40,289 bases of DNA from a virus, in the IMG/VR virus record IMGVR_UViG_3300050821_006883, positions 1-40,289 of that record. One strand, 5' to 3'. Each line of letters begins with the position of its first letter. Position 1 is the stretch's first letter. The notes under the pieces were generated by a model. The model searched no databases and had not been told where the DNA came from. It saw nothing but the letters and a program-made list of their open reading frames with translations. Made by a program: the position numbers and the translations under genes. Positions 16,603-32,775 of this stretch are shown piece after piece.

Positions 16603-17063
16603 AAGACCCTAAAATCCTGGCCGAAGCCCAGGACCGCGTGTGGGTCTCCGGAGACTTCCAGCCCAAAGAGACCGATGCGGGGGAAATGACGTATTGCAAC
16701 CTGGCGGTGAGCACCGTCCTGGGGATGATGGGATGTCATGCGCTTGACCACCTGACCGCCGGAGCGATGGTCTTGCGAATGCGCGAGCATCCGGATTGGG
16801 AAATGTGCCGAATGCAGGAAGCTCAGATGCGCGTCAACCAGGGTTCTCTGATCGTGGCGGGACTGACCGCCAACGAACTAGGGCAAACACACGCGCACGT
16901 CTGTACGCTCACCCCTGGCGTCGTGGATTTTGCCGGAAAATGGGGCGTCACGACCCCCGTGTGCATGAATTTGGGGCGCAAAGGGACCTGCTTTCGGTCC
17001 AAAGGGGTCAACTGGGCTTTTCAGATCAGACCAGATTTTTTTGTCTGGAAAGAGAGCTTGTAG
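16599..17063 (+). CDS. Putative papain-fold cell-wall hydrolase (endolysin candidate)
   Basis: This 154-aa protein has 'EMTYCNLAV' with Cys33 at the start of a helix and, 65 residues later, 'THAHVCTLTPG' with His100. Between them lies 'DWEMCRMQEAQMRVNQGSLIVAG'. The Cys-Asn helix start, the 'A-x-x-G-x-x-V-V/I-A' strand and the H-x-H-V strand match the layout of CHAP/NlpC-type papain-like peptidoglycan amidases in phages. It follows a small membrane protein and precedes another, which suits a lysis cassette. The assignment is by pattern only, and I cannot name the exact family. Confidence 0.6.
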   Translation: MKDPKILAEAQDRVWVSGDFQPKETDAGEMTYCNLAVSTVLGMMGCHALDHLTAGAMVLRMREHPDWEMCRMQEAQMRVNQGSLIVAGLTANELGQTHAHVCTLTPGVVDFAGKWGVTTPVCMNLGRKGTCFRSKGVNWAFQIRPDFFVWKESL

Positions 17064-17075
17064 AAAGGAGGTCGT

Positions 17076-17261
17076 ATGAAAGGATTGGACAATCGCAGAG
17101 GCGCGCTGGACATCTTTGGGCTTCTTTTGATTCTGCTTCTCTTCGGGTTTTTCGGGGCGGCGCCTTTTTGGAGTTACAGTCATTCTTGGGGGTATGGTCC
17201 CAGTGGATTTATGGGAGTTATTTTACTCATCATTCTGTTGAAAGTGCTTAACGTTATCTGA
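17076..17261 (+). CDS. DUF3309-like small membrane protein
   Basis: This 61-aa protein has the strong site AAAGGAGG before ATG. It has two hydrophobic segments ('IFGLLLILLLFGFFG' and 'GVILLIILLKVL') around a central 'WSYSHSWGYGPSG' loop. The W-G-Y-G-P-S-G loop between two Leu/Ile-rich helices is the hallmark of DUF3309 proteins. Their function is not established. Position in the lysis region makes a holin role possible. Confidence 0.7.
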   Translation: MKGLDNRRGALDIFGLLLILLLFGFFGAAPFWSYSHSWGYGPSGFMGVILLIILLKVLNVI

Positions 17262-17298
17262 GATACAGAATGTCTTTATTTGAGGAGAAAATTATGTG

Positions 17299-17745
17299 TT
17301 AAATATGTTTCCAGCCTCTTCTTTTAACGATGCCTGCAATCGTCGCTGGAGAGACTCCATAAATTCGGGCGAGGACTCCTCCTTGATAATGAATATAAAG
17401 ATGTCTGATTTCAGCGACATCTTCCGCCGTAAGTTTGTGACAGTAGTGTTTTTCGCCCCAACAATCTCTCGCTTTTGCGAGCATGTCCGAGCTGTTGTCT
17501 TTTTGAGTCCCGAGAAAAAGGTGGGAAATTTTAACGCAATTTCTGACATCACATTTATGGCAAACAAGCATGCCTTTCGGGATGAGGCCTTTTCGGACGG
17601 TCCAATGGAAACGGGATGCGACCGTCTGCCTTTTCCCGTCGTAAAAGGCCCCATATCCGTCGTGCGTTTTTGCCCCGGTAAAAAGCCAGCACGTAGGGGT
17701 TTTCTTGATATATTTGAAGAAGTGTTTGGTAAGATTTTTTCGCAT
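17299..17745 (-). CDS. HNH homing endonuclease
   Basis: This 148-aa protein lies antisense within the late operon. It contains 'CWLFTGAKTHDGYGAF' near the N-terminus, 'VCHKCDVRNCVKISHLFLGT' (the H-x-C-D-x-x-x-C-x-x-x-x-H-L core of phage HNH_3-type homing enzymes) and a C-terminal helix-turn-helix-like part 'VLARIYGVSPATIAGIVKRRGW' that would bind DNA. I chose the ATG at 17745 because GGAGG precedes it. The opposite orientation and independent position mark it as a mobile free-standing endonuclease that inserted between lysis genes. Confidence 0.85.
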   Translation of the reverse strand: MRKNLTKHFFKYIKKTPTCWLFTGAKTHDGYGAFYDGKRQTVASRFHWTVRKGLIPKGMLVCHKCDVRNCVKISHLFLGTQKDNSSDMLAKARDCWGEKHYCHKLTAEDVAEIRHLYIHYQGGVLARIYGVSPATIAGIVKRRGWKHI

Positions 17746-17770
17746 GGGAACCTCCAATTCCTGTGCCATT

Positions 17771-17797
17771 CCCCGCAAGGTTTACGCCTTGGCGGGG
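17771..17797 (+). terminator. GC-rich stem-loop upstream of the 17820 gene
   Basis: CCCCGC-AAGG pairs with CCTT-G-GCGGGG around the loop TTTACG, giving a ten-base-pair stem with one bulged G. The following bases are ATTTCTAT, only weakly T-rich. It lies between the start of the antisense HNH gene and the next late gene, so it could attenuate late transcription or shield the insert. A structural role without termination is also possible. Confidence 0.45.
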
Positions 17798-17819
17798 ATT
17801 TCTATGGGGGTATTTTAAC

Positions 17820-18224
17820 ATGAGTGTTTTAAAAAAGCTGGAAGACAAGATTTTCAAAGACGTGCTGGAACGGGTGAAGAACATGGAGCAAAATCTGTTC
17901 GGGGATTTGTTCAAACGGCTGGACGCTATCGAGGCCAATCTCGTAGCGATAGGAGAAAAGGAGGATAAAATCATGTCGCAGATCGATGATCTAAAGCAGG
18001 AAGTTTCGGATGAAGACGTGCAGGTCACAACCTTGGTGGCATCGGCGGCCAAGATTGACGCGGACGTGGCGGCCTTGATCGCTAAGGTGGCGGCAGGCGC
18101 GACCCCGGCGGACATCACCGCGCAGCTCACCACGATCAAAGCCCATACGGCGGCCTTGGCGTCGGTGAACGCCAACATGGTGGCGGACGACCTTTCGGCC
18201 AATCCAACGGCCCCCAGCGCCTGA
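17820..18224 (+). CDS. Coiled-coil protein
   Basis: This 134-aa protein begins with 'MSVLKKLEDKIFKDVLERVKNM', continues as an amphipathic helix to about residue 75, then has an Ala/Val-rich part ('AALIAKVAAGATPADI'). The heptad-like spacing suggests an elongated coiled coil similar to small 'SQIDDLKQ'-containing phage proteins found near lysis genes. The ATG at 17820 lies just after the stem-loop. Function is unknown. Confidence 0.6.
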   Translation: MSVLKKLEDKIFKDVLERVKNMEQNLFGDLFKRLDAIEANLVAIGEKEDKIMSQIDDLKQEVSDEDVQVTTLVASAAKIDADVAALIAKVAAGATPADITAQLTTIKAHTAALASVNANMVADDLSANPTAPSA

Positions 18225-18319
18225 TGAAAATACTCAAAAACGAAAGCGGCCTTGTGTTTCTCGTCCTGGCGATTATCGGGGCGGTGGCTGTAGTCGTCTA
18301 TATCGTGCATCACGTCTAA
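18224..18319 (+). CDS. Single-span membrane peptide (31 aa)
   Basis: The ATG overlaps the previous TGA (TGATG). The peptide is a short basic start followed by one hydrophobic helix ('GLVFLVLAIIGAVAVVVYIV') and a His-His end. It could be a holin-like lysis peptide because it is bracketed by lysis-type genes, but size alone does not decide this. Confidence 0.5.
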   Translation: MKILKNESGLVFLVLAIIGAVAVVVYIVHHV

Positions 18320-18322
18320 AGA

Positions 18323-18338
18323 AAGCGGGGGTCCGCTT
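18323..18338 (+). other. Short perfect stem-loop
   Basis: AAGCGG pairs with CCGCTT around a GGGT loop just after the 31-aa gene. No T-run follows, so it is not a standard terminator. It may affect translation of the next small gene or mRNA stability. Confidence 0.3.
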
Positions 18339-18364
18339 GTGGTGGGGACTCCCAAGGGAGACTT

Positions 18365-18517
18365 ATGGATGTTTTAACGCTCATGGCGTTTATTTCCAAG
18401 ATCGCCACCGAGGCTCCGGTTCTTTTGCCGGACGCTCTTAAACTCATGGCCGATCAGCAGCAGGTGTTTGCGGATTTCTCCAAACTGGTGAAGGACTTTC
18501 AGGCGACCAAGGCTTGA
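18365..18517 (+). CDS. Small helical protein (50 aa)
   Basis: The frame has a GGGAGAC ribosome-binding site and ends in a TGATG overlap with the hydrolase gene. The sequence is amphipathic helical ('VLTLMAFISKIATEAPVLLP', then 'FADFSKLVKDFQATKA'). It may be peripheral to the membrane. No family is recognised. Confidence 0.5.
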   Translation: MDVLTLMAFISKIATEAPVLLPDALKLMADQQQVFADFSKLVKDFQATKA

Positions 18518-19035
18518 TGACAGTACAGCCTGGCGACATTCTCCTATGGAAAATCGACGCGCAGGCTTCCTGGATTGAACGGCTAGTGGGTTGGGGGGAA
18601 AGACGCGCAGGCCAGCCGAAAACGGAAGGCGCGGACTTTTATCACGTCGGCATTTGCGGACCCGATGCCCTGCACTTCTACGATTCGGCTCCGGGGGGCG
18701 TCAAGAATTCCCTTATCACCGAACCCTGGCCCGATCACCTGGAAGCCTACCGATTTAAATTCCCGCTGACCGAAACGCAGCTCGCCAAGTTCTGGTCCTA
18801 TGCCAATTCCCAGAAAGGGGTCGGCTACAACTGGATCGGAGCGTTAACGCTGGGATGGGTGCAAGTGGCGGGCAAGCCTTTCTGTTCGGAGTTCGTCTGG
18901 CGCATCTGCGCCAATGCCGGGATTGTTTTATGCGATTACCAAACCTTCTTGTCCCCGGATGACCTGGCCCATTCGGACATTATTGTGAAGATTGGGGATG
19001 TTCCGCCGCCGGTTGTTCCTCATAGTGAATCGTAA
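18517..19035 (+). CDS. YiiX/Peptidase C92-like cysteine hydrolase
   Basis: This 172-aa protein has 'VQPGDILLW' (the P-G-D-I strand), 'DFYHVGIC' with His43, and 'GKPFCSEFVWRIC' with Cys123. This order, histidine before cysteine, is the circularly permuted papain fold of the YiiX/YebB group (NlpC/P60 superfamily). Such enzymes cut peptide or ester bonds; some act on cell-wall peptides or lipids. It is the last late gene, and its 3' end overlaps the early-operon rusA gene by 56 bp tail to tail. A second lysis enzyme or a virion hydrolase are both possible. Confidence 0.75.
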   Translation: MTVQPGDILLWKIDAQASWIERLVGWGERRAGQPKTEGADFYHVGICGPDALHFYDSAPGGVKNSLITEPWPDHLEAYRFKFPLTETQLAKFWSYANSQKGVGYNWIGALTLGWVQVAGKPFCSEFVWRICANAGIVLCDYQTFLSPDDLAHSDIIVKIGDVPPPVVPHSES

Positions 19036-19375
19036 CTTCCGTCCGGGGGTTGGCATCTTCCCGAACCATTCGCGTGTGCTCTTCGACAATTTGTTTATCG
19101 TCTTTCCATAAAATCTGATTCCCGGAGTCTTCAACCGCTTTGACCATGTTCGACAGGTCGGAACGGTTCCCGCCGCCATAGAAAACCATATCCACGGATA
19201 AATCCCCCCCTAGAATCGAAGCCTTGGCGATCTGCCGTGCATAAAAAAGGGCTAAAGAAAGCGTTTTTCGCTCTTTAGCGCTTTTATCGTAGGTCCAGGT
19301 GCGGCCCCCCTTAGTGACCGTCCGGGCTCTTTGCTGGATCACGGGTTTGCCGGCGATGCAGAAGCTGTACTGCAC
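18980..19375 (-). CDS. rusA: RusA-family Holliday junction resolvase
   Basis: This 131-aa protein has the RusA layout: 'IAGKPVIQQRAR' near the N-terminus, 'RSDLSNMVKAVEDSGNQ' with the metal-binding Asp and Asn, and 'LWKDDKQIVEEHTRMV' with the second acidic pair. RusA dimers resolve four-way DNA junctions made in recombination and replication. I prefer the GTG at 19375, which overlaps the exonuclease stop as TAGTG, because RusA proteins start close to the first strand; an ATG at 19417 is possible. It ends the early operon. Confidence 0.8.
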   Translation of the reverse strand: MQYSFCIAGKPVIQQRARTVTKGGRTWTYDKSAKERKTLSLALFYARQIAKASILGGDLSVDMVFYGGGNRSDLSNMVKAVEDSGNQILWKDDKQIVEEHTRMVREDANPRTEVTIHYEEQPAAEHPQSSQ

Positions 19376-19956
19376 TAGCGGGTTTTCCAACGGTACAAAT
19401 CCATCACCGAATCCCACTGAGAAAACCCGACTCCATAATCGAATTCTTTAAATGTGCCGTCATCGTGCAGTTCTACCACGATAAACGGGAGTGCAGGAAC
19501 ATGAATTTGGAGCGATAGATGTTTATAGGCCTGTCCCTGCAATTCAGCCACTTTGTCGTGATCCTTACTACACTTCCAATCCCAGATTCCTGTCTCGGTG
19601 ATAAGGTCGGGCGTTCCAGCAAATTCAATGCCTTTGGCGAAGGGATGTTCGAGTGCGATCACCATCTCTTTAAAGTGCCCTTGCCAAAATTTGAGGAACG
19701 CATCAAACTGAGGCTTGATGTTGGGGTCAAGACTCGCCGGGTCCAAGATTCCTTTCAAATGAAGTTCGATGGCTTTGTGGCAGGCAATCCCGCGATCCCG
19801 GTAAAAGGGATCAACCCCGTCATAGTTTTTGGTGAGCCCGATTTTCTGGAGAATTTCACTAACCGACGGTACCCGCGTTTTGCCGACGAAGTATTTGTGA
19901 CCTTCGGGATCAAACCGCAGTTCAGAATCCGGGAGGGGTTTCTTCTTCGATGGCAT
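19375..19956 (-). CDS. PD-(D/E)XK exonuclease (RecB/Cas4-like)
   Basis: This 193-aa protein contains 'SVSEILQKIGLTKNY' near the start, 'RGIACHKAIELHLKG' with a conserved His, and 'FAGTPDLITETGIWDWKCS', where the Asp of P-D and the D-x-K form the nuclease centre. A Gln-x-x-x-Tyr motif follows ('LQGQAYKHL'). It is a phage recombination exonuclease of the kind paired with RecT-type annealases. The gene lies between the ssDNA-binding protein and RusA genes, as in other recombination operons. I chose the ATG at 19956; an ATG three codons upstream is possible. Confidence 0.8.
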   Translation of the reverse strand: MPSKKKPLPDSELRFDPEGHKYFVGKTRVPSVSEILQKIGLTKNYDGVDPFYRDRGIACHKAIELHLKGILDPASLDPNIKPQFDAFLKFWQGHFKEMVIALEHPFAKGIEFAGTPDLITETGIWDWKCSKDHDKVAELQGQAYKHLSLQIHVPALPFIVVELHDDGTFKEFDYGVGFSQWDSVMDLYRWKTR

Positions 19957-20296
19957 TGAAATCACCTATGTGGGTCCGAATCTTTGACGGGTCTTTGGCG
20001 TCGGGCTTATGGGAAACCGTGGCATTAAACATTTTCCCATGCTGATCTTCCGTGCTCCAGTCAAATTTTCCGGGCTCAATCTCTGTGCAATCCAAAATCT
20101 TCAAGAGGCCGCCCATCATGTTCGGCAAAATGAGGACGTCTCCCGATCCTCCGTCATAGGTCAGCTTCCAGATAAAAAACTCTCCGTTATTTTTCCCGTA
20201 GCGTTTCTCCACGGACTCCACCAGAAAGTTGCGCTTTCCGTCGGGGAGATCCGACCCCATTCGGGGTTTTGTGTCTGTGATTTCTCTGGGGCTCAT
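19922..20296 (-). CDS. Putative single-stranded DNA-binding protein
   Basis: This 124-aa protein lies between the annealase and the exonuclease. The chain begins 'DGKRNFLVESVEKRYGKN', continues with beta strands ('GEFFIWKLTYDGGSGDVLIL'), and ends with an acidic tail finishing in 'EEETPPGF'. An acidic tail with a terminal aromatic is typical of SSB-type proteins (it binds replication partners). A DUF669-like fold is likely. It overlaps the next gene by 35 bp and the previous by an ATGA. Confidence 0.65.
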   Translation of the reverse strand: MSPREITDTKPRMGSDLPDGKRNFLVESVEKRYGKNNGEFFIWKLTYDGGSGDVLILPNMMGGLLKILDCTEIEPGKFDWSTEDQHGKMFNATVSHKPDAKDPSKIRTHIGDFNAIEEETPPGF

Positions 20297-20916
20297 GCTT
20301 TGGCCTCCGTGGTTTCAATCGACTTTTTCTCCAGAGCCTTGGGCATGTAAATGGTTGGCTTGGAGGTCCCTTCTCCATCGTTAAGCTCATCGTTTGTGTA
20401 GAGCCCAGAGATCGCATCAGGGAATGTGATCCGCAGGTTTGCGGCCAGAGCCCGCCAGCCGAACATGGTTCCAGCCTGCTTCTTGTAATTGTCTTTCCCC
20501 ATGAGCTGTTGGGCATTGGCTTCCTCCACTCCAAAGTGAGTTGTATACGGGGACTGTCCTTTGCGGGTGATGGTTACGGTAGCCAGAACCTGGGAGATTT
20601 CCATTTTCATGTCTTCGAGCTGGCCGGTACGCCGGGCCAGGGCCAGCATGAGTTGAGGAGATACCGATGTTTTACCCTGGATCACGTTAATGCCGCCCAA
20701 GGCCTCCATCATCCCGATCCCCAATTCCCGCCCCTTGAGCGCGATCGCCAGAACCTTTTCAGGAGTATTGACCTGAGTGGGAAGGAAACCAGACTTGAGC
20801 ATTGTATCGGCCTGCTGGCGCATCACGGTCCACTGATCGAGCGTCAGGTCTTTGACCTCCCCAGTCTTAGTATCGACGATCTCAGTCGTCTGTGTTTCGG
20901 GCACGTTCGTTGGCAT
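20293..20916 (-). CDS. RecT-like single-strand annealing protein
   Basis: This 207-aa protein has the RecT-type core: 'VLAIALKGRELGIGMMEALG', then 'INVIQGKTSVSPQLMLALAR', and 'GWRALAANLRITFPDAISGLYT'. These correspond to the 'A-L-x-x-G-R-E-L-G-I-x-P-x-x-A' and 'I-x-V-I-Q-G-K' blocks of phage annealases. It would load on the single strand made by the exonuclease at 19375. AGGAGG precedes two adjacent ATG codons (20919 and 20916); spacing favours the second. No DNA polymerase is encoded, so annealing may be this phage's main replication-linked function. Confidence 0.8.
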   Translation of the reverse strand: MPTNVPETQTTEIVDTKTGEVKDLTLDQWTVMRQQADTMLKSGFLPTQVNTPEKVLAIALKGRELGIGMMEALGGINVIQGKTSVSPQLMLALARRTGQLEDMKMEISQVLATVTITRKGQSPYTTHFGVEEANAQQLMGKDNYKKQAGTMFGWRALAANLRITFPDAISGLYTNDELNDGEGTSKPTIYMPKALEKKSIETTEAKA

Positions 20917-21076
20917 CATAAGCCTCCTCTTGTCGGCAATATCCACAGACCGTATACGTCACCGGCTCTCTCCCGCACGGGCAATCCCGTAAATCCTTAA
21001 AGGGCATCGTGCATCGGACGCAGGCATAGAGATGATCGTGCACATCAATTGAGTTTGGTTTTGAAATAGTTCTCAT
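20882..21076 (-). CDS. Small zinc-ribbon protein
   Basis: This 64-aa protein has the pattern 'YACVRCTMPFKDLRDCPCG' followed by 'YTVCGYCRQEE', giving six Cys in Cys-x2-Cys pairs able to bind one or two zinc ions. The start is uncertain: ATG at 21076, or GTG at 21037, which would keep the zinc ribbon and reduce overlap with its neighbour. It is part of the overlapping early chain. No function is recognised. Confidence 0.6.
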   Translation of the reverse strand: MRTISKPNSIDVHDHLYACVRCTMPFKDLRDCPCGREPVTYTVCGYCRQEEAYDANERARNTDD

Positions 21077-21197
21077 GAATCACGTCCAGTTTCCCATCTT
21101 CATTTAAGACTCGGACAAATTCGTTTGCCAGATCCCAGGCGACAATCACTTCCCGGCCATCTTCCAGACGCCAGCGTTCGCCTTTGATGTGTTTCAT
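21045..21197 (-). CDS. Small early protein (50 aa)
   Basis: The ATG overlaps the stop of the preceding gene as ATGA. The protein contains 'RWRLEDGREVIVAWDLANEF' then 'DVIHENYFK', beta-rich with Trp, similar to small SH3-like or inhibitor proteins of phages. No family is recognised. The coupled start supports it. Confidence 0.55.
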   Translation of the reverse strand: MKHIKGERWRLEDGREVIVAWDLANEFVRVLNEDGKLDVIHENYFKTKLN

Positions 21198-21331
21198 GCA
21201 GCCTCTCCCATCGGATCAAACGCTTCGCATAGGCACGTCACGCTGGTTTCGGCGTCCAAGTCTCCATTGCACATTCCAAATCCCCCGTCATGGACAGATT
21301 GGGGGTGATGGCATTGGCATATCCTATCCAC
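21194..21331 (-). CDS. Cys/His-rich small early protein (45 aa)
   Basis: A GTG start lies seven bases behind GAGGAGG. The product has 'RICQCHHPQS', 'GMCNGD' and 'VTCLCEAF', i.e. five Cys and two His, which is a zinc-binding pattern. It overlaps both neighbours and is too short for routine gene calling. Confidence 0.55.
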   Translation of the reverse strand: MDRICQCHHPQSVHDGGFGMCNGDLDAETSVTCLCEAFDPMGEAA

Positions 21332-21500
21332 GCTGGGCCTCCTCTAAGTCCAAAGTCGCGCACCGATCGCAGATATTGCTCTGCCAGGTTTCCATGAAGG
21401 GGTCCATACACCGGTAGGCGTAGTCGCAGTTACATTCCCGGCAATATTCCCTGTGGCAGAATCCGAGCGATAGGGGTTTACTTGTGTTTAGGGTTTTCAC
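21324..21500 (-). CDS. Cys-rich zinc-finger-like early protein (58 aa)
   Basis: A GTG start gives 'LGFCHREYCRECNCDYAYRC' and then 'SNICDRCATLDLEEA'. Seven Cys in C-x4-C-x2-C-x-C and C-x2-C spacing point to one or two zinc sites. No strong ribosome-binding site is seen, so translation may depend on the overlapping upstream gene. Function unknown. Confidence 0.5.
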   Translation of the reverse strand: MKTLNTSKPLSLGFCHREYCRECNCDYAYRCMDPFMETWQSNICDRCATLDLEEAQRG

Positions 21501-21645
21501 GTTTGTTCAGTCTTTCAAAATGCCGCAGATGCGGATTGACGAAATCTCTTTTGCGCTCATGATATCCCCGCGTCCGATTGGCCGCCTTCCAGATTCCCCA
21601 GAAGATGACGGCCCAGAAAAGTCCGATGCCGATAAAGAGAATCAT
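21478..21645 (-). CDS. Small membrane protein (55 aa)
   Basis: The ATG overlaps the excisionase stop as ATGA. The N-terminus is one membrane helix ('ILFIGIGLFWAVIFWGIW'); the C-terminus is strongly basic and probably cytoplasmic. Early phage membrane peptides of this type often alter host physiology or exclude other phages, but no evidence is visible here. Confidence 0.55.
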   Translation of the reverse strand: MILFIGIGLFWAVIFWGIWKAANRTRGYHERKRDFVNPHLRHFERLNKRENPKHK

Positions 21646-21872
21646 TCCTGGTGGTTTTCCACCCACCACATCAGCTTGTCATAAGGGAACTTGCGGGTCT
21701 TCCTCTTGGTGCCGGAGAGAATCACGGAAGGCGGCGGGTCCGGGAGTTTCATCCACCGCCATAAGGTGGTACGCCCCACACCCAGCAAATCCCGTACCTG
21801 CGTAATCGACAAAAGTCGGCTCTGGGCCGCCAGTTCCGGCAACTGATTTGCAGTGACTTCCGTTTTTTCCAT
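21642..21872 (-). CDS. AlpA/MerR-type HTH protein, probable excisionase
   Basis: This 76-aa protein contains 'LLSITQVRDLLGVGRTTLWRW', a winged-helix motif like those of AlpA and Xis proteins, followed by a basic wing and 'FPYDKLMWWVENHQE'. It is the first gene of the early operon, transcribed from the promoter at 21981-22009, and faces the integrase across the control region. An excisionase that also tunes the switch is the most likely role. The ATG follows AAGGGGAAAATA. Confidence 0.7.
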   Translation of the reverse strand: MEKTEVTANQLPELAAQSRLLSITQVRDLLGVGRTTLWRWMKLPDPPPSVILSGTKRKTRKFPYDKLMWWVENHQE

Positions 21873-21882
21873 TATTTTCCCC

Positions 21883-21911
21883 TTGACAAGCATGGAACTA
21901 ATTGGAACAAT
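21883..21911 (+). promoter_or_regulatory. Rightward promoter of the regulator-integrase operon
   Basis: TTGACA at 21883-21888 is separated by 17 bases from AACAAT at 21906-21911 (four of six -10 matches). It would transcribe the two RHH genes and the integrase and reads across the inverted repeat at 21940. The -10 match is moderate, so this is a prediction. Confidence 0.5.
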
Positions 21912-21939
21912 GTGAAACACTCAAGTTAGTTATCCACAA

Positions 21940-21966
21940 TGGGTTAAATTAGTTCACTTTAACCCA
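21940..21966. promoter_or_regulatory. Inverted-repeat operator in the lysis-lysogeny control region
   Basis: TGGGTTAAA at 21940-21948 and TTTAACCCA at 21958-21966 are perfect inverted repeats nine bases apart, centred between two facing promoters. The second arm continues into AACCCAAAATGGTTT, which overlaps the predicted start of the leftward transcript. The site is a good operator for the RHH proteins at 22003 or 22149, or for the HTH protein at 21642. Confidence 0.7.
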
Positions 21967-21980
21967 AAATGGTTTCAGGC

Positions 21981-22009
21981 AAAATACCAAAGGCGGTAGC
22001 GCTTGTCAA
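21981..22009 (-). promoter_or_regulatory. Leftward early promoter
   Basis: On the minus strand TTGACA (22009-22004) is followed after 17 bases by TATTTT (21986-21981). Transcription would begin near 21974 and cover the excisionase, RecT and RusA genes after a leader of about 100 nt. The -35 box overlaps the TTG start codon of the first RHH gene. The two promoters face each other across the operator. Confidence 0.65.
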
Positions 22010-22176
22010 GAAAATTTTACGCCACCATCGGGCTCGACGAAGAAGTGATGGTTGCGCTCAAAGAAAAAGCGGGATTAGATGACCGCAGTTTAAGCAGCAT
22101 GGTCAATCGCATCTTGCGCGAGCACTTCAAATTAAAAGGAGAAAAACAATGGCAACTAAAGTTCCCAGAGGACTGA
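22003..22176 (+). CDS. Ribbon-helix-helix transcription regulator 1
   Basis: This 57-aa protein starts at TTG; an in-frame TAG two codons upstream fixes the start. It has an N-terminal strand 'KFYATIGLDEEVMVALKEKA' and then 'SLSSMVNRILREHF', the strand-helix-helix pattern of Arc/CopG repressors. AAAGGCGG lies upstream as a ribosome-binding site. It is the first gene after the switch and overlaps the second RHH gene by 28 bp. Such small dimers bind operators like the repeat at 21940. Confidence 0.7.
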   Translation: MSRKFYATIGLDEEVMVALKEKAGLDDRSLSSMVNRILREHFKLKGEKQWQLKFPED

Positions 22177-22334
22177 GAATCAACATCCCGATCACCGGGG
22201 AAATCTACGAGCAGGTGCAGATGGATGCCGACGAGCATTGCCGGTCTAACGGGTCGCAGATTCTTTTTATTCTGCGGGACTGGTATGCGCGGCGTAAGCA
22301 GTTGCAGAGTGTCGATTCAGCAGGAGCGATCTAA
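22149..22334 (+). CDS. Ribbon-helix-helix transcription regulator 2
   Basis: This 61-aa protein has AAAAGGAG before ATG. It reads 'GLRINIPITGEIYEQVQMDA' then 'GSQILFILRDWYARR', again a beta strand plus two helices. Together with the first RHH gene it would replace a classical CI-type repressor, which this phage lacks. The final A of its stop overlaps the integrase ATG (TAATG), so the three genes are co-translated. Confidence 0.65.
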   Translation: MATKVPRGLRINIPITGEIYEQVQMDADEHCRSNGSQILFILRDWYARRKQLQSVDSAGAI

Positions 22335-23569
22335 TGGAAAAGTTCAACGCATGGACCGAAACAACGCAGGCGGGCAGTATCTTGATCCGCTATCGGGACA
22401 CTAAAACGGGAATCAAAAAAACGCACCAGATTGTGCAGAAAGAAGAGCGGGCTTTGATCGACGGAAAATGGCATACCGCCAAATGGCTGGCCGAAGCGCA
22501 CTTGCAGAACCTTCGCAACCTCTACCATTCCAATAAGCTGGGGTTTTCCGCAGCCTCTGAGCCCTTAGAAGAACTTGTAGAAACTTATCTGGAAGAAAAA
22601 AAGAACCTCGCCTGGAAGACCCTTGAGCATTACGAAAGTTCGCTCAATCATTTGAAGGCCGAGTTTTCCAGCACCGCAGAGTTGACCTTGGATCGAATAC
22701 GCGAATGGAAGGCCAAGATGACGCGCACCGGCATTGCCAACAACACACTTCACGGGCGGCTGAACGATTCCAGTATGTTCTGCCGCTGGCTGGTCAAACG
22801 CAAGAAGCTCTCTGAGTCCCCATTTTTGGAAGGGGAAGGCCTCATCCCGGCCCAAACGGCTCCCAAACCACGATTCTATACCACGCAGGAGTTCATGGCC
22901 TTAGATCGCCAATTAGAGGCCTTAAACCACCATGCCAGAGTGGGTTGCCACCTGGCGCGGGACTTTGGGCTGCGAATCGTGGAAATCGTGGGAGATGGGA
23001 TGGAACGAACGCAAGGCGTTTTGTGGGAAGACCTCATCTGGAAGCCGGATGGGAGCGTCGATCTCTTAATTCGCCGGGAAGTGACCAAAGGCCAGAAGAA
23101 GTCGCGCAAGGCCTACCTGGATGCTGACTTCATCCAAATGCTGGGATCGCGCCGTACAGGTCCGCTTGTCCCCTTGGGGCGCTGGGAGTTTGTAAACCTC
23201 TTTGAAAAGGCGCGGGATCAGGCTGGGATTAACCCGGAGCTGACTTTCCATGGCCTGCGGCATACCTTTGGCAAGAACTTCTTGCAGAGGTCAGGGTCGA
23301 ACCAGGCGGCGCTCCGGGACCTCCTGGGCCACACCGATGTCAAGACCACGGAAATCTATTCCCAGTTTGAAGATTCCTACTTGGAAGAGGCGACCAAAAA
23401 AGCCGGGGAAAAAATCCGTGAGGAAGAACAGGTGCTAAAGGCGCGTGGGCAGGCAAAGGGCAAACCTAGCCAAATCATCGAAACCAACGGAAACCTATCG
23501 GAACCAAATGGGACTAATAATGATTCCAAGAATGACTCTAAAAGTGGACAAATTTCTATGGGTTCGTAA
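22334..23569 (+). CDS. int: Tyrosine-recombinase integrase
   Basis: This 411-aa protein has an N-terminal arm-binding part, a core-binding SAM-like domain ('LEELVETYLEEKKNLAWKT') and a C-terminal catalytic domain. Catalytic residues are visible: Arg in 'ARDFGLRIVEI' near residue 214, 'HGLRHTFG' (H-x-x-R) near 306-309, and 'LLGHTDVKTTEIYS' with Gly-His and the nucleophile Tyr near 342. The last 60 residues are hydrophilic and Asn-rich. It lies immediately before the candidate attP at 23586. It would integrate the phage into a tRNA-Thr gene. Confidence 0.9.
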   Translation: MEKFNAWTETTQAGSILIRYRDTKTGIKKTHQIVQKEERALIDGKWHTAKWLAEAHLQNLRNLYHSNKLGFSAASEPLEELVETYLEEKKNLAWKTLEHYESSLNHLKAEFSSTAELTLDRIREWKAKMTRTGIANNTLHGRLNDSSMFCRWLVKRKKLSESPFLEGEGLIPAQTAPKPRFYTTQEFMALDRQLEALNHHARVGCHLARDFGLRIVEIVGDGMERTQGVLWEDLIWKPDGSVDLLIRREVTKGQKKSRKAYLDADFIQMLGSRRTGPLVPLGRWEFVNLFEKARDQAGINPELTFHGLRHTFGKNFLQRSGSNQAALRDLLGHTDVKTTEIYSQFEDSYLEEATKKAGEKIREEEQVLKARGQAKGKPSQIIETNGNLSEPNGTNNDSKNDSKSGQISMGS

Positions 23570-23585
23570 CTCATCGACGGACTAT

Positions 23586-23623
23586 GCCGACGTAGCTCAA
23601 ATGGTAGAGCCCTTGTTTTGTAA
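23586..23623 (+). other. attP: Candidate attP: 5' half of a tRNA-Thr(UGU) gene
   Basis: These 38 bases read as a tRNA from its first acceptor base to the anticodon loop: acceptor strand GCCGACG, D-arm GCTC...GAGC with TAGCTCAAATGGTAGAGC, and an anticodon loop TTTGTAA holding TGT. After it the sequence no longer pairs (GTAGA instead of ACAAG) and no T-arm follows. The piece starts 16 bases after the integrase stop codon. It is thus most likely the crossover core shared with the host tRNA gene. A decayed tRNA gene is the alternative. Confidence 0.65.
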
Positions 23624-23688
23624 GTAGAATCGAATGTTGATTTATAGATGTTTTTTTAAAAAGCGACGGGCAAATAGCGACAAAAAGT

Positions 23689-23717
23689 TTGATTTTTCGG
23701 GAAATCTTGCATACACT
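23689..23717 (+). promoter_or_regulatory. Promoter of the rightward accessory region
   Basis: TTGATT at 23689-23694, a 17-base spacer and TACACT at 23712-23717. The start point would be near 23724, two bases before the GTG of the next gene, so the mRNA would have almost no leader. It lies downstream of attP, so in a prophage it would stay with the accessory genes. Confidence 0.5.
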
Positions 23718-23725
23718 TTCCAATC

Positions 23726-23899
23726 GTGCTCGAAGAAAATATAATACTGACGCTGTTCTGGGTGGGCTTTTTAATCTGGGGTGCTCTGGAGATTTATGGC
23801 ATGACTTGGCGCGAGCGGCAGGCGCTCTTTATTTTTGGAGTTCTTTATGCGGGGATGCTGTATCTGATCGTTCACTTCGGGATATCTCTCCCAGGATGA
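23726..23899 (+). CDS. Two-helix membrane protein (57 aa)
   Basis: A GTG start begins a protein with two hydrophobic segments ('ILTLFWVGFLIWGALEIYG' and 'LFIFGVLYAGMLYLIVHFG') separated by 'MTWRERQ'. The stop TGA overlaps the next ATG. It has no Shine-Dalgarno site, which fits the predicted leaderless mRNA from the promoter at 23689. Confidence 0.5.
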   Translation: MLEENIILTLFWVGFLIWGALEIYGMTWRERQALFIFGVLYAGMLYLIVHFGISLPG

Positions 23900-24417
23900 A
23901 CGCGCTTTTTCTCATCGCGGCTCTGGCGCTGCCGTCCGGCAAGATGCAGGCCAGCATGGACACGCGGGTGCGCCTGGTGCAGATGCTCTCGGCGTTTACC
24001 AGCGAGTACACCAACGATAAGCAATCCCGCATTTTAGTGGTCAGTGAATCCTGGCAGATGGTATCGATCATGCGCCGCAAGAAGTTTAACGCCTATGGCC
24101 TGGCCTCCATTCGCACGCGCTCTAAATACGTGGTGCTCGGGCTGGCGATTCTGGCTCCTTTTTCCGAGTCGAGTTTTCGCCTGATCGTCCATGACGATTC
24201 GCTGCCCTCCATTCAGGGGCTTTTGATGATGTCCTTGCGGGAGATGGATCGCGTCCTAGTTCATGGGGGATTTCTGTTTACGCCTTCCGAGCAAAACGAC
24301 CTCACGCATTATTTTCTTTCGCAATTAAAATACCGGCGTATCGGGCTGACCTTTGAGGGACTGGCGGTCTTTCAGAAAAGCGGGACCGCCCGGCGCTATT
24401 GGGGACAGAGCGCATGA
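23896..24417 (+). CDS. Degenerate methyltransferase-like protein
   Basis: This 173-aa protein has 'RILVVSESWQMVSIMRRKKF', 'SSFRLIVHDDSL' and 'LREMDRVLVHGGFLFTPS'. The last two resemble motif IV and the 'L-x-E-x-x-R-V-L-x-P-G-G' helix of class I methyltransferases. The Gly-rich SAM loop of motif I is replaced by SESW, so SAM binding is doubtful. It could be a derived, perhaps inactive, Rossmann protein. It starts in an ATGA overlap. Confidence 0.5.
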   Translation: MNALFLIAALALPSGKMQASMDTRVRLVQMLSAFTSEYTNDKQSRILVVSESWQMVSIMRRKKFNAYGLASIRTRSKYVVLGLAILAPFSESSFRLIVHDDSLPSIQGLLMMSLREMDRVLVHGGFLFTPSEQNDLTHYFLSQLKYRRIGLTFEGLAVFQKSGTARRYWGQSA

Positions 24418-24491
24418 ATTTCGCGGACCTCCTGGTAGTCGTGGTCGCGCTCTCGGCTCTCATATGGCTCGTCGGAGATTTCTATAAATGA
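24414..24491 (+). CDS. Single-span membrane peptide (25 aa)
   Basis: ATGA overlaps at both ends place this peptide in the accessory chain. It is almost entirely one hydrophobic helix ('LLVVVVALSALIWLVGDFY'). No function can be assigned. Confidence 0.45.
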   Translation: MNFADLLVVVVALSALIWLVGDFYK

Positions 24492-24724
24492 CTTCATTTT
24501 CAGACGACGATTTGAAGTGGCTGAAAGAATATCTTGAGCGGCCGCCAAAGAATCAGACTGAGAGGATATCTAAAAAGAATCCAACACGTCTGCGCGAGAA
24601 TTTCTTCAGGGCTCTCCTCTCCCGTCTCGACGCGGCGGAGCAATTTATCATTGACGGTTTTGGGTCAGACAAGCCGCCGAGCCACGTTCTCTACGAAGCC
24701 TGGCGCAAGGCGTGTGGCAAATGA
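24488..24724 (+). CDS. Hypothetical soluble protein (78 aa)
   Basis: This charged protein starts in an ATGA overlap. It is mostly helical ('DDLKWLKEYLERPP', 'LRENFFRALLSRLDAAEQF') and ends 'YEAWRKACGK'. No known domain is recognised. Confidence 0.55.
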   Translation: MTSFSDDDLKWLKEYLERPPKNQTERISKKNPTRLRENFFRALLSRLDAAEQFIIDGFGSDKPPSHVLYEAWRKACGK

Positions 24725-24831
24725 AATTATTCGCTCTTGGTTTTTTAGCTGGAATGATATTTGGAATGACCCTTATTCTTCGAGCCCTGTGGCCGGTCGA
24801 TGGCCTTAGATGGAAGTGGTGGGGAAGATGA
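24721..24831 (+). CDS. Single-span membrane peptide (36 aa)
   Basis: ATGA overlaps join it to both neighbours. It has one helix 'LFALGFLAGMIFGMTLILRAL' and a Trp/Arg-rich end. Function unknown. Confidence 0.45.
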   Translation: MKLFALGFLAGMIFGMTLILRALWPVDGLRWKWWGR

Positions 24832-24977
24832 AAAAGAAAAAACAATATGTCCCTCTGCCAGATTGTCCGAACTGTGGAGGAATTCACTTCGGTCAATATG
24901 ATTGCCCATTTACGAAAGAAGAAGGCGCTGAATATAAGCGCAAGGCGGGTCCCCACGCCATGAGGAAAAAAGCATGA
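24828..24977 (+). CDS. Zinc-binding small basic protein (49 aa)
   Basis: The start is an ATGA overlap. 'LPDCPNCGGIHFGQYDCPF' gives C-x2-C plus a third Cys and a His, enough for one zinc ion. Both ends are Lys-rich, so nucleic-acid binding is possible. Confidence 0.5.
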   Translation: MKKKKQYVPLPDCPNCGGIHFGQYDCPFTKEEGAEYKRKAGPHAMRKKA

Positions 24978-25168
24978 AAGATACGCTCGCAGCGTCGTTC
25001 ATCGCATTCGGGATCGGAATGCTTCTGGGAGTCTTTACAACCCTCTCGATAATAGGTCAGGATCACAACAACGTCACCGTGCGCGGTATCAAAGATTCGT
25101 TTCAAACGGTGGTTTGGGAGGACAAGGCCTATCGACTGGTTCCGTTGGACAAAGCGGGCAAGCCATGA
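24974..25168 (+). CDS. Single-span membrane protein (64 aa)
   Basis: An N-terminal helix 'AASFIAFGIGMLLGVFTTLSII' is followed by a 40-residue soluble part with 'QTVVWEDKAYRLVPL'. It could be an anchored periplasmic or cytoplasmic small protein. It starts and ends in ATGA overlaps. Confidence 0.5.
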   Translation: MKDTLAASFIAFGIGMLLGVFTTLSIIGQDHNNVTVRGIKDSFQTVVWEDKAYRLVPLDKAGKP

Positions 25169-25299
25169 ACGATCCTTACATGAAAATAAGAATCCAGCTT
25201 CAAACACTTGTCGGCCTCCTCTGCGCCTGCGCCGTGGGCTGGCACTATCTGAGGTGGCAGGGGGTATTGATTGCGTTGGCCGTTTATGGCCTACGATGA
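25165..25299 (+). CDS. Single-span membrane protein (44 aa)
   Basis: Begins in an ATGA overlap. The central segment 'LQTLVGLLCACAVGWHYL' and the end 'GVLIALAVYGLR' are hydrophobic. No family recognised. Confidence 0.45.
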   Translation: MNDPYMKIRIQLQTLVGLLCACAVGWHYLRWQGVLIALAVYGLR

Positions 25300-25496
25300 A
25301 AAAATACTACGACGGAATCTGTATTGGTTTAGCTCTATCTTTGGCCTTGGCTTGCGTTGCGATCTTTGTCTATATGCTCGTCGCGCACTGGAAATGGGGT
25401 CTCGGGATGATTGGATCGTGGTTATTTATGATGGGTGCGATGAGAGGAGTTATGTTGCTTGGAATGTGGGATGAGCGACGGAGAAAGAAGCCATGA
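25296..25496 (+). CDS. Two-span membrane protein (66 aa)
   Basis: The ATG lies in an ATGA overlap. Two hydrophobic segments ('LALSLALACVAIFVYML' and 'LGMIGSWLFMMGAM') end with a basic tail 'DERRRKKP', which should be cytoplasmic. Function unknown. Confidence 0.5.
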   Translation: MKKYYDGICIGLALSLALACVAIFVYMLVAHWKWGLGMIGSWLFMMGAMRGVMLLGMWDERRRKKP

Positions 25497-25672
25497 CCCC
25501 GAAGGCCAGGAGTGCGGAGGAAATGGCTGAAATTATTTTAGGCCCGATTCATCTTCCGAAAGAAACGAGAGATTGGAATAAAGAACGGATTATCCAAGTC
25601 CTTAATTCTTTCGGCAAACAAGAATACGAACGCGGGCGTATGGATGGATTTAACGAGGAAAATCTCAGATGA
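25493..25672 (+). CDS. Small soluble protein (59 aa)
   Basis: An ATGA-overlap gene with helices 'SAEEMAEIIL' and 'ERIIQVLNSFGKQEYERGR'. The acidic-basic pattern resembles the start of the next protein, which also begins with a K-T/S-A-E-E motif. No domain is recognised. Confidence 0.5.
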   Translation: MTPKARSAEEMAEIILGPIHLPKETRDWNKERIIQVLNSFGKQEYERGRMDGFNEENLR

Positions 25673-26223
25673 AAACAGCCGAAGAAGCAGCGAAAGATTT
25701 TATCGAATACTGGAAGGATGATTTTCGTCTTGCGCCATTGGCCGATTTACTTACCGCCTTCGCCGAGGAGCGGGTGAAGGCCCACGACTTCAATTCTCCC
25801 GCGATGAAAAAGCCGGAGGAATTGGCTCTATCAATCGTAGCAAGGGTTCTAGCTGACGGAATAAGCGAAGGTCTAAGCGAAGAGACAAATCACAAAATTG
25901 CCCAAGCCATCACCGGATACGCCGAGGAGCGGGTGAAGCAAGCAATTAGAGCGGCCGTCAATACATTCTCTTTAACAAAACAGGAAATCGATAGGGTGTA
26001 TTTTGAAGCCCGCGCCGAAGCTCTAAGAGATTTGAAACTGGCCTGCCCTCTATGCGGCGAAACTCTTGACCATGAGAATAATGTGAAAAATAAATGGCTG
26101 GAAGAGGCGGCTCGAATGTCTGAAACGCATCATAAAAAGTTTCACTTCAAAACCAAGCCCAGAGATTGCGTTTGCGAAAATCAAATCGCTGATGACATCC
26201 GCGCTCTCAAGGACAGACCGTGA
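25669..26223 (+). CDS. Hypothetical protein with internal repeat and zinc ribbon
   Basis: This 184-aa protein has two similar segments, 'LLTAFAEERVKAHDF' and 'AITGYAEERVKQAIR', about 60 residues apart, so it contains a duplicated helical unit. The C-terminal part carries 'LACPLCGETLDHEN' and, further on, 'RDCVCENQ', four Cys of a zinc ribbon. It starts in an ATGA overlap and overlaps the next GTG. Function is unknown; nucleic-acid binding is possible. Confidence 0.6.
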   Translation: MKTAEEAAKDFIEYWKDDFRLAPLADLLTAFAEERVKAHDFNSPAMKKPEELALSIVARVLADGISEGLSEETNHKIAQAITGYAEERVKQAIRAAVNTFSLTKQEIDRVYFEARAEALRDLKLACPLCGETLDHENNVKNKWLEEAARMSETHHKKFHFKTKPRDCVCENQIADDIRALKDRP

Positions 26224-26390
26224 CCGAACGACAAATAACTTGGGTTCAAATTGCGGGGGTTAAAATTCCAGCTCATAAATTGATCTGTCCCGAATGCAAA
26301 ACGTTGGATTTGAATACGACAACGGACAAGGACTGGAATGCCCATTGTCCGTTGGGCCACATATGGAAAGTAAGAGAGCCAAAGCCGTGA
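26220..26390 (+). CDS. Small zinc-ribbon protein (56 aa)
   Basis: A GTG start overlaps the previous stop (GTGA). The pattern 'LICPECKTLDL' then 'AHCPLGHIW' gives C-x2-C and C-x3-H for one zinc. It ends in a GTGA overlap with the next gene. Confidence 0.5.
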   Translation: MTERQITWVQIAGVKIPAHKLICPECKTLDLNTTTDKDWNAHCPLGHIWKVREPKP

Positions 26391-26470
26391 CCTGGCCTGA
26401 GTGCATAGCGATTATCGCGGCGCTTGCGGCGGCTTGTGTGATGCTTTGGATCATTTGCAAATATAAGTGA
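26387..26470 (+). CDS. Single-span membrane peptide (27 aa)
   Basis: A GTGA-overlap peptide with one helix 'CIAIIAALAAACVMLWIIC' and a KYK end. It is the last member of the coupled chain before the tRNA at 26479. Confidence 0.4.
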   Translation: MTWPECIAIIAALAAACVMLWIICKYK

Positions 26471-26478
26471 CCGATTTG

Positions 26479-26559
26479 GCATGGGACAGAGTGGATCTGG
26501 GGAGGCCTGTAGAGCCTTTTGGCGAAAGCCTGATGATGGTTCGATTCCATCCCCATGCA
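26479..26559 (+). tRNA. tRNA-Tyr (GUA) with shortened D-arm
   Basis: The acceptor strands GCATGGG (26479-26485) and CCCATGC (26552-26558) pair perfectly, followed by discriminator A at 26559. The anticodon stem GAGGC/GCCTT (with one G-T pair) encloses CTGTAGA with anticodon GTA at 26509-26511. A long variable arm (TT-GGC-GAAA-GCC-TGAT) marks a type II tRNA, as expected for bacterial tRNA-Tyr. The T-arm is canonical (GATGG-TTCGATT-CCATC). Between acceptor and anticodon stem are only 16 bases, so the D-arm is very short. CCA is not encoded. It could be a degenerate gene. Confidence 0.6.
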
Positions 26560-26582
26560 GATTTGGCCCTGCGGCGATCCGC

Positions 26583-26663
26583 GTGGAGCTTTCGGGCGCT
26601 GAGATGCGGAGCATACTTCCGGTTCCGGGCCGGCCAGGGCCATTGGATTTGGAGGATGAATGA
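26583..26663 (+). CDS. Possible 26-aa peptide
   Basis: A GTG frame downstream of the tRNA ends in an ATGA overlap with the next gene, the junction style used across this region. The product is Pro/Gly/Leu-rich. No good ribosome-binding site is seen, so the call is weak. Confidence 0.25.
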   Translation: MELSGAEMRSILPVPGRPGPLDLEDE

Positions 26664-26806
26664 TCGAGATCGAGGAGCATACTTTCTTCTGGTTTGCGGG
26701 TGATTTTTGCCGTGGAACTTCCGAAGATATGAATGATTATCATTATATGTGCGAACGCGCTGGTGAAGAAATTAGCACAGCCCTCGGCGCTCTGGAGGAA
26801 AAATAG
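26660..26806 (+). CDS. Small acidic protein (48 aa)
   Basis: GGAGG precedes the ATG. The product contains 'EEHTFFWFAGDFCRGT' and ends with 'EISTALGALEEK', acidic and partly helical. No known family. Confidence 0.5.
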   Translation: MIEIEEHTFFWFAGDFCRGTSEDMNDYHYMCERAGEEISTALGALEEK

Positions 26807-26827
26807 TGCGTGACAAGGGGAGGCCTG

Positions 26828-27037
26828 ATGCCCAGAGTCATTAACGATGAATTTTCCGCACTTTCGATTTGCCGCCAGAGGCGCTGGCAGCTGCGGCAAG
26901 TCAAAGCCGGGCGTTGTATGATCTGCGGAAGGATGTCGGTCACCCGGCATTATTGTCGGAGACATGCCGACGATAACAGCCGACGTAACCTGAAAGGGGT
27001 TCAGGCGACAAAAAAAAGACTTGACAAGTTGGACTAG
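26828..27037 (+). CDS. Basic zinc-finger protein (69 aa)
   Basis: AGGGGAGG lies before the ATG. The core 'GRCMICGRMSVTRHYCRRHA' (C-x2-C and C-x2-H) with following Arg/Asn-rich sequence is a common small phage zinc protein that may bind nucleic acid. Function is not established. Confidence 0.6.
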   Translation: MPRVINDEFSALSICRQRRWQLRQVKAGRCMICGRMSVTRHYCRRHADDNSRRNLKGVQATKKRLDKLD

Positions 27038-27049
27038 ACTTCCCATAAT
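27021..27049 (+). promoter_or_regulatory. Strong sigma-70-type promoter
   Basis: TTGACA at 27021-27026, a 17-base spacer and CATAAT at 27044-27049 (five of six -10 matches) form the best consensus promoter in the window. It overlaps the end of the zinc-finger gene at 26828. Transcription would start near 27056, giving a leader of about 95 nt before the gene at 27151. Confidence 0.75.
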
Positions 27050-27055
27050 TTTCAG

Positions 27056-27150
27056 GTGCGCTCATATAGAAATCATTTCCAAAAAACCTCTTTAAGTGGC
27101 GCTTCCGGGGGCGCACAACTCTCCAATTGTCGGGGGGCCGCTTTCCTTTC
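27056..27150 (+). promoter_or_regulatory. Structured leader after the 27021 promoter
   Basis: No gene is visible in this stretch. It contains GTGGCGC and GCGCAC arms (27096-27116, one bulge) around a CCGGGG-rich loop, and a G-rich run (GGGGGGCC) shortly before the start codon. The leader may be regulatory, or the transcript may begin with a small RNA. Confidence 0.35.
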
Positions 27151-27330
27151 ATGAGTAGAAGCAAATCGATCCTTGGTGGAACTGAATACGCGCTCAAGGA
27201 CGCTGACAGCACCACCTTTCGGTTTATCCCGATTCAGGACAGCTTATTTCGCGTGAATCTTAAGACCGGCGAAACCTGGCTGTTATCCAACAAAGAGTTC
27301 AAATGGAAGCTGGTTCCCGAAGATGAATAA
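27151..27330 (+). CDS. Small beta-rich protein (59 aa)
   Basis: The start ATG at 27151 has no clear ribosome-binding site, but the frame follows a strong promoter. The product has alternating strands ('TTFRFIPIQDSLFRVNLKTG', 'ETWLLSNKEFKWKLV') like a small beta-barrel. No family is recognised. Confidence 0.5.
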   Translation: MSRSKSILGGTEYALKDADSTTFRFIPIQDSLFRVNLKTGETWLLSNKEFKWKLVPEDE

Positions 27331-27535
27331 CCCAATTTCGGACTTAAAACAACGGGGCTCATTCGGAGATTCATCCGTCCCGGCTCATTCAGACGAGATA
27401 CCGTCGGCTTTGTCCACCGGCGCTCTGGAACCTGTAGACCAATGTGACGATGACGGGGGAATCCCCTTCCTGGGTCAGTTGTTCGCAGGCAGGCTTATTG
27501 GTTCACCCTGGGTGCTTTCAGCTCTGACGCGCTGA
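27323..27535 (+). CDS. Possible small protein (70 aa)
   Basis: The ATG overlaps the end of the previous gene. The product is acidic and low in predicted structure, with 'VDQCDDDGGIPFLGQLFAG'. No motif is seen. The sequence could be noncoding; a start 5' of it (GGGGCTCATTCGG) superficially resembles a tmRNA 5' end but no matching 3' end exists. Confidence 0.3.
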   Translation: MNNPISDLKQRGSFGDSSVPAHSDEIPSALSTGALEPVDQCDDDGGIPFLGQLFAGRLIGSPWVLSALTR

Positions 27536-27656
27536 TCTGCTCAAGAATCAATCATTGTTCCAATAAGTATCGCTGTCCGCGATACGTCCATGTACCCATA
27601 TTGTTCCGAATCAAGGGGTCTCCCCTAGTGGCATACTAGACCAAACAGGACGAGTT
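27536..27656 (+). other. Noncoding leader with two stem-loops
   Basis: A perfect hairpin GTATCGC-TGTCC-GCGATAC lies at 27567-27585. A bulged hairpin lies at 27617-27642: GGTC, bulge TCCCC, TAGT, loop GGCAT, ACTA, GACC. The second ends 14 bases before the next start codon and so could control its translation. No gene is visible here. Confidence 0.5.
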
Positions 27657-27887
27657 ATGTCGAAATCAAGCAAATCCATGAAAAGTTCTAAAGAAAGAGT
27701 TCGTCAAGATTCCTGTTTGCATGAAAGCATCGCTTATTGTTCTGGAGAATTGATCAATGCGATGACGGGTGAATTGGTTCGCAGGGTCAATGGGAAACTG
27801 TGCGTGGATTGCGGCAAGGAAATCGAAAGAATTACGTGGGATAATATTGCCGGAGTGTTTGTTAAAGTCGATTACTTGAAAGGATAA
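27657..27887 (+). CDS. Small zinc-binding protein (76 aa)
   Basis: ATG follows AGGACGAG. A Ser/Lys-rich start is followed by 'RQDSCLHESIAYC', then 'GKLCVDCGKEIERITWDN', i.e. a Cys pair and further Cys/His residues. Such short phage proteins often bind zinc. Function unknown. The stem-loop just upstream suggests translational control. Confidence 0.55.
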   Translation: MSKSSKSMKSSKERVRQDSCLHESIAYCSGELINAMTGELVRRVNGKLCVDCGKEIERITWDNIAGVFVKVDYLKG

Positions 27888-27891
27888 TCAC

Positions 27892-28479: not shown

Positions 28480-28488
28480 GAGACTCCC

Positions 28489-28581: not shown

Positions 28582-28589
28582 CCTAGCGA

Positions 28590-29884: not shown

Positions 29885-29916
29885 AAGCCACTCAGCCTTC
29901 GTTTTAACGCGCTATC

Positions 29917-30180: not shown

Positions 30181-30191
30181 GAGCATCATGG

Positions 30192-31084: not shown

Positions 31085-31094
31085 GATTTTCTCC

Positions 31095-31466: not shown

Positions 31467-31488
31467 TATTGTTTTTCGTGGTTGTAGA

Positions 31489-32621: not shown

Positions 32622-32775
32622 ATGGCCCATACTAACATCGGTCTATGGAGGACCATATGCTTGCTTGCAGCAAGCCTTAATGGAGCTTAATGGAACGTAT
32701 CAGAGGTTCATAATCTAGGATTAGGTGGCTAGAATCGAATCGTGGTGCAAGGAATAAACCGTTTATATCCATTAT

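Follow-up and report, generated by a model that had tools for sequence, protein, structure and literature searches.

The virus record analysed here (40,289 bases; hereafter the window) probably encodes a lysis-lysogeny switch on the plan of phages P2 and 186, in which ribbon-helix-helix (RHH)-like proteins take the position of the C/CI repressor and an excisionase-like protein, Xis, takes the role of Apl/Cox. The record carries a 97-nt direct repeat at its ends, which suggests that it is probably a complete circular phage genome, and it appears to belong to an uncultivated temperate phage of bacteria that alternates between dormancy in the host chromosome and killing of the host. The candidate switch lies in a gap of about 129-130 bp (21873-22002) that separates a leftward excisionase-like gene from a rightward operon of RHH-like and integrase genes. 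Among the relatives obtained by terminase searches, the module of xis opposite an RHH gene with face-to-face promoters was found in one only, G006 (IMG/VR 3300002307_000114; 38,680 bases, loci L008 and L009), whose terminase is 59% and whose integrase is about 40% identical to that of the window.

The gap contains exactly two promoter-like sites, and these are convergent. The promoter scan predicts a rightward TTGACA-17-AACAAT on the + strand (21883..21911), which would be the lysogenic, Pc/pL-like promoter of the RHH1-RHH2-int operon, and a leftward TTGACA-17-TATTTT on the - strand (22009-21981), which would be the lytic, Pe/pR-like promoter of xis and the recombination genes; both were recovered where an earlier, sequence-only reading had placed them. 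Each is sigma-70-like, scores 10/12 and has a TG preceding the -10 box. In dinucleotide shuffles of 21874-22012, sites of at least 10/12 on both strands arose in 2 of 3000 cases and a convergent pair in none of 3000. The predicted transcription starts lie 57 bp apart in the window and 79 bp apart in G006, the latter being somewhat longer than the 40-60 bp that characterizes P2 and 186.

Profile matches also bear out the operon contents that had been proposed for the two sides, namely two RHH-like ORFs and an integrase rightward and an excisionase-like gene with recombination genes leftward. The leftward operon is headed by the gene for an excisionase/AlpA-like HTH protein of 76 aa (21642..21872, - strand), the candidate for the Apl/Cox-like role. 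A match to phrog_66 (E=9e-8) identifies this product as a small protein of the excisionase (RDF) family; its Pfam HTH_17/AlpA match falls below the cut-off (HTH_17, E=1.7e-4), and it is 40% identical to the Xis of G006, which passes both HTH_17 (40 bits vs a cut-off of 27) and TIGR01764. It is followed by small ORFs and then, all on the - strand of this lytic-side operon, by a RecT-like gene (20293-20946), an ORF without assigned function (19922-20296), an exonuclease gene (19375-19965) and a RusA gene (18980-19417), the RecT-like, exonuclease and RusA genes being assigned by profile matches.

On the opposite side, the + strand encodes RHH1 (22003..22176, 57 aa), a candidate repressor whose TTG start lies within the -35 region of the leftward promoter, the Arc-like RHH2 (22149..22334, 61 aa) and then, in a P2-like arrangement, a tyrosine integrase of 411 aa (22334..23569; PF00589, E=2.5e-12; phrog_1, E=5e-33). 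Judged from its sequence, the probable attP core (23586..23624, + strand) corresponds to the 5' half of a tRNA-Thr gene up to the anticodon loop TTTGTAA: it is similar to the corresponding half of the tRNA-Thr in G006, where that tRNA is complete, and a weak tRNA match extends over 23586-23642. Phages usually carry the 3' part of the tRNA used as attachment site. With a 5' half as the core, integration would supply the host tRNA with a promoter region from the phage side. The stretch 23586-23624 additionally gives a sub-threshold Y-RNA-like (YrlA) match. A tRNA-Tyr (GTA) gene is present elsewhere in the window (26479-26559), and G006 has genes for tRNA-Thr and tRNA-Met. A scan of genome contigs returned one weak match to a Lysinibacillus integrase, and neither the host nor attB was found in it.

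The two small rightward proteins are related to the RHH fold by matches that fall below the Pfam cut-offs, with RHH1 scoring 18.6 bits against the FitA-like RHH family (cut-off 27; E=0.0019) and RHH2 scoring 14.2 bits against Arc (cut-off 20.4; E=0.041). A single-chain model of RHH1 (pLDDT 70) places two helices, residues 13-23 and 27-45, where they are expected in an RHH protein; the corresponding single-sequence prediction was uninformative, that of RHH2 was poor, and comparison of the RHH1 model with the PDB gave zero matches. BLASTP could align neither protein to the RHH protein of G006. A search with PF01402 (RHH_1) gave zero matches in all four genomes, G006 included, and is uninformative by itself on the absence of RHH proteins, because the RHH gene of G006 matches RHH_5 instead. 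As to a conventional repressor, the claim that the genome has no CI-like gene agrees with the profile searches of the window: HTH_3 yielded a 12.5-bit fragment below the cut-off, and Peptidase_S24 and Phage_CI_repr yielded nothing. The HTH_3 and CI_repr profiles likewise find no match in G006. Where P2 and 186 have an HTH immunity repressor (C/CI) as the first lysogenic gene, the window has the RHH-like genes. We propose the RHH proteins as the counterparts of C/CI because of this position on the lysogenic side and because no alternative is recognisable.

The best-supported candidate binding sites in the gap are short direct repeats that it shares with the attachment region. At the 3' end of int, to the left of the att core, lie four tandem 10-bp boxes, ATCGAAACCA|ACGGAAACCT|ATCGGAACCA|AATGGGACTA (23477..23516, + strand), in which autocorrelation peaks at lag 10; since their period of 10 cannot be divided by 3, a repeated peptide in the int frame fails to explain them. 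When the whole window was scanned with a matrix built from these four boxes, the best tandem triple outside att was the one starting at 21891, in the switch itself, where three putative excisionase-type boxes, CATGGAACTA|ATTGGAACAA|TGTGAAACAC (21891..21920, + strand), lie over the lysogenic promoter. Shuffled versions of the gap reached the score of this triple in 4 of 2000 cases, with only spacings of 9 and 10 scoring. The boxes of the window have moderate scores, and the shuffle figures are somewhat optimistic because visual inspection had first brought up the motif. A weaker array in the opposite direction, CCTGAAACCA|TTTTGGGTTA|AAGTGAACTA|ATTTAACCCA (21940..21979, - strand), is the best match of four units outside att and the + array. 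As the boxes are common to the gap and att, they point to the excisionase-like HTH protein, in an Apl/Cox role, as their binder. We infer that Xis binds them, and its assignment to the Apl/Cox role is, as a prediction, well supported.

Between the promoters, the sequence-only reading had noted a perfect inverted repeat, TGGGTTAAA-N9-TTTAACCCA, in a switch that it took to be controlled by RHH proteins. The repeat is indeed present at 21940..21966 and is unique in the genome, but it is a weak signal that rises barely above chance in shuffles: 56 of 3000 gap shuffles (about 2%) hold a 9-bp inverted repeat with a spacer of at most 20, and the window as a whole has four of these against 3.8 expected. 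We accordingly rejected it as a strong independent signal. Both of its arms fall within the weaker - strand array (21940..21979), and they would sit more naturally in an array for the excisionase than in an operator of their own. Of the proposal that RHH proteins control the switch, the facing promoters, the lack of a recognisable CI and the RHH-like genes that open the lysogenic side have held; control through this repeat is conjectural, and the best-supported sites in the gap are the att-type boxes. RHH1 and RHH2 may be the proteins that confer immunity, and the reported repeat may be among their targets; a search of the gap sequence brought out no convincing RHH operator.

Another candidate operator was the palindrome CTTGACAAG, which sits at the -35 boxes of both switch promoters and at a third promoter at 27020, as well as at two promoters of the relative L003. 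The window has only three CTTGNCAAG sites, at the same three promoters, against 0.6 expected. However, the intergenic TTGACA promoters of these phages are preceded by C in 10 of 16 cases and followed by A in most, so that a general preference for CTTGACA-A accounts for most of the palindrome and leaves its final G alone unexplained. CTTGACAAG was consequently dropped as an RHH operator and is not counted as operator evidence. The third promoter, TTGACA-17-CATAAT at 27020-27049, is strong (11/12). Also lying between the facing promoters is a perfect DnaA box, TTATCCACA (21930-21938), the only one in the window; by our estimate such a box occurs by chance in about one third of genomes of this size. 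Elsewhere in the window, two + strand ORFs (28590-29519 and 28594-29556) overlap almost completely in different frames and look like an overprinted gene pair, one being a C5 cytosine methyltransferase (PF00145; phrog_363, E=3e-58) whereas the match of the other is to phrog_1008 (E=2e-26), another family of phage proteins.

The arrangement of the switch recurs in G006, where xis (L008:19341-19541, + strand) lies divergent from an RHH gene (about L008:18942-19148, - strand) that passes the RHH_5 cut-off (30.1 bits vs 26). The gap between them holds predicted promoters that face each other, TTGACA-17-TATCTT (L008:19183-19211, + strand) as the counterpart of the lytic promoter of the window and TTGACT-17-TAGTAT (L008:19331-19303, - strand) as that of the lysogenic one, and here too a convergent pair arose in 0 of 3000 shuffles. 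In both phages the lysogenic -35 box adjoins the ribosome-binding site of xis and the lytic promoter adjoins the RHH start. The integrase gene of G006 lies outside the RHH operon, which indicates that the conserved element is the RHH gene opposite xis. Convergent box arrays are likewise found in G006. An unbiased repeat search recovered there a 20-nt sequence, GATACACCTTGGCACACCTA, composed of two 10-bp units, in two copies identical at 20 of 20 positions: one in the switch (19273-19292, - strand) and the other (18309-18328, + strand) between int and xis, near the tRNA-Thr gene. Integrase-arm-like repeats of 25 nt (18259-18283 and 18488-18512), separate from the boxes, flank the region of the second copy, which is taken to be att. 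Near it, beside the tRNA-Met gene, is a 49-bp tandem duplication (L008 18541-18638; copies 98% identical). Putative RDF boxes, repeated directly every 10-11 bp, can be recognised in the window and in G006, at the predicted att as well as in the space that separates the facing promoters.

Scanning with a matrix of the switch and att boxes revealed further clusters in both phages, located between the terminase small subunit gene and the operon that faces it, while a control stretch gave nothing convincing. The cluster of the window, with the core AATGGAGCTT|AATGGAACGT (32669..32708, + strand), lies upstream of the terminase genes and was equalled in 4-9 of 400 shuffles, and its syntenic counterpart in G006 (L008, 9386-9544) in 0 of 400. 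Tandem repeats resembling the excisionase boxes were also seen at 27555-27574 of the window, in a further regulatory gap.

Other genomes and collections yielded little that is close to this module. Close homologues of int, RHH1 and xis in viral contigs were either not found or came from G006 only, and in a phage collection RHH1 had no matches and xis only remote ones. A further relative by terminase, G009, has xis followed directly by int on one strand, a plan unlike that of the window. The genome G007 (L022-L024, IMG/VR 3300042196_000173), with a terminase 77% identical to that of the window, looks complete with its 127-nt terminal repeat and gave no profile matches to integrase, xis or RHH, as if this near cousin of the window phage were virulent.

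In phage 186 and the P2-like phages the lytic and lysogenic promoters are face-to-face and 40-60 bp apart, the excisionase (Apl or Cox) is encoded by the first lytic gene, and Apl/Cox direct repeats spaced by one helix turn (10-11 bp) are found in two places, namely att and the stretch that separates the promoters, where they mostly cover the lysogenic one (PMC7498355). The likeness of the convergent promoters to those of P2 and 186, which had been pointed out from the sequence, thus extends in this published plan to the position of the RDF gene and to the boxes (PMC7498355). Judged by sequence, the window shares with the pR-pL region of coliphage 186 (Apl, CI) the facing promoters, the excisionase gene first in the lytic operon and the presence of boxes at att as well as in the switch; 186 differs in having a CI repressor and seven boxes, whereas the window has RHH-like genes in that place and three clear boxes with a weaker inverted set. 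The CI protein of 186 is of the HTH type. In P2 the lysogenic promoter Pc drives the CI/repressor gene and int and is repressed by Cox, and the lytic promoter drives cox first (PMC10321612). Cox boxes do not all have one orientation, and a further promoter is among the targets of Cox (PMC5882170). The Pe/Pc region of P2 (Cox, C) and the window have in common a lysogenic promoter serving the repressor position and int, and xis/cox as the first gene on the lytic side; the variable orientation of the boxes and the further promoter targeted by Cox likewise count among the likenesses. They differ in that C is replaced by RHH-like proteins and that RecT, exonuclease and RusA genes lie downstream of xis, where P2 has replication genes downstream of cox. 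We do not class the window phage as a member of the P2/186 group, because the HTH repressor that defines it was looked for and was not recovered at the head of the lysogenic operon. Phage lambda, with CI and Cro acting from shared operators, has its promoters back-to-back (PMC7498355); it resembles the window in that two opposing transcription units run from one short region, and is unlike it in that the promoters of the window are face-to-face.

RHH proteins are already known as keepers of viral dormancy, as exemplified by F55 of SSV1 and by Arc and Mnt of P22. The latter two function within a secondary immunity region of P22, which also has the c2 repressor, whereas in the window no other repressor is recognisable. 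Arc and Mnt are RHH repressors of a temperate phage that serve in the maintenance of lysogeny (PMC10516654). F55 is a 55-aa RHH protein that keeps SSV1 dormant by repressing the early promoters and its own promoter, in a virus that is archaeal and has archaeal promoters; the description consulted mentions neither facing promoters nor an excisionase array (PMC9608457). In the open-access papers searched, no phage of bacteria is described in which an RHH repressor serves a face-to-face switch.

Taken together, the predicted promoters, the operons and the putative boxes at both places are all present in the window, and the plan is kept in a second phage. On this basis the lysogenic promoter (21883) and the lytic promoter (22009), both presumably active, would fire toward each other. 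For excision, the excisionase-like protein would bind the tandem boxes of 10 bp near att; it would also bind between the promoters, shutting the lysogenic one, while the RHH-like proteins, made from the lysogenic operon together with the integrase, would presumably repress the lytic promoter. It is very improbable that the promoter matches are accidents in an ordinary divergent gap and that the true promoters lie elsewhere: consensus matches are no proof, and the region 17000-33500 holds 19 of them against 13.9 in shuffles, only a slight excess, but in neither of two diverged phages did any of 3000 shuffles produce a convergent pair in the gap. The opposing promoters could alternatively set only the ratio of Int to Xis, as a module that balances integration and excision and takes no part in immunity or in the choice of lysis. 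This accords with int at the end of the rightward operon and xis at the start of the leftward one; yet the latter runs on into the RecT, exonuclease and RusA genes, the integrase gene of G006 is located elsewhere, and box clusters occur upstream of the terminase genes as well, so that such a restricted role is improbable.

A more serious challenge concerns the identity of the repressor. The promoters and the excisionase array may be real while another, unrecognised protein, for instance one encoded in the leftward operon 30192-32547, is the immunity repressor, with RHH1 and RHH2 only tuning the integrase or their own operon. Many small ORFs lack a family match, the RHH matches in the window are weak, and upstream of the terminase genes there is another regulatory region with boxes, all of which would fit such a protein. 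However, the RHH gene of G006 stays opposite xis although int has moved away, suggesting that RHH is linked to the switch and not to int, and the HTH_3, S24 and CI_repr searches find no gene in the window; we therefore regard a different repressor as unlikely. That RHH proteins are the sole immunity repressor of this uncultivated temperate-phage lineage, so that the excisionase half and promoter topology of a 186-like switch are joined to an unrelated repressor fold, is a reading to which we give somewhat short of an even chance.

Since the switch would consist of a gap of about 130 bp and three small proteins, it should be testable outside its native host. If the proposed P2/186-like switch with RHH proteins in the repressor position is correct, facing promoters and a dual-purpose excisionase would represent the part of such switches that endures, while the fold of the repressor would be interchangeable. 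This would also help to explain temperate phages that seemingly lack CI, and RHH genes opposite an excisionase gene would be where to search for their repressors.
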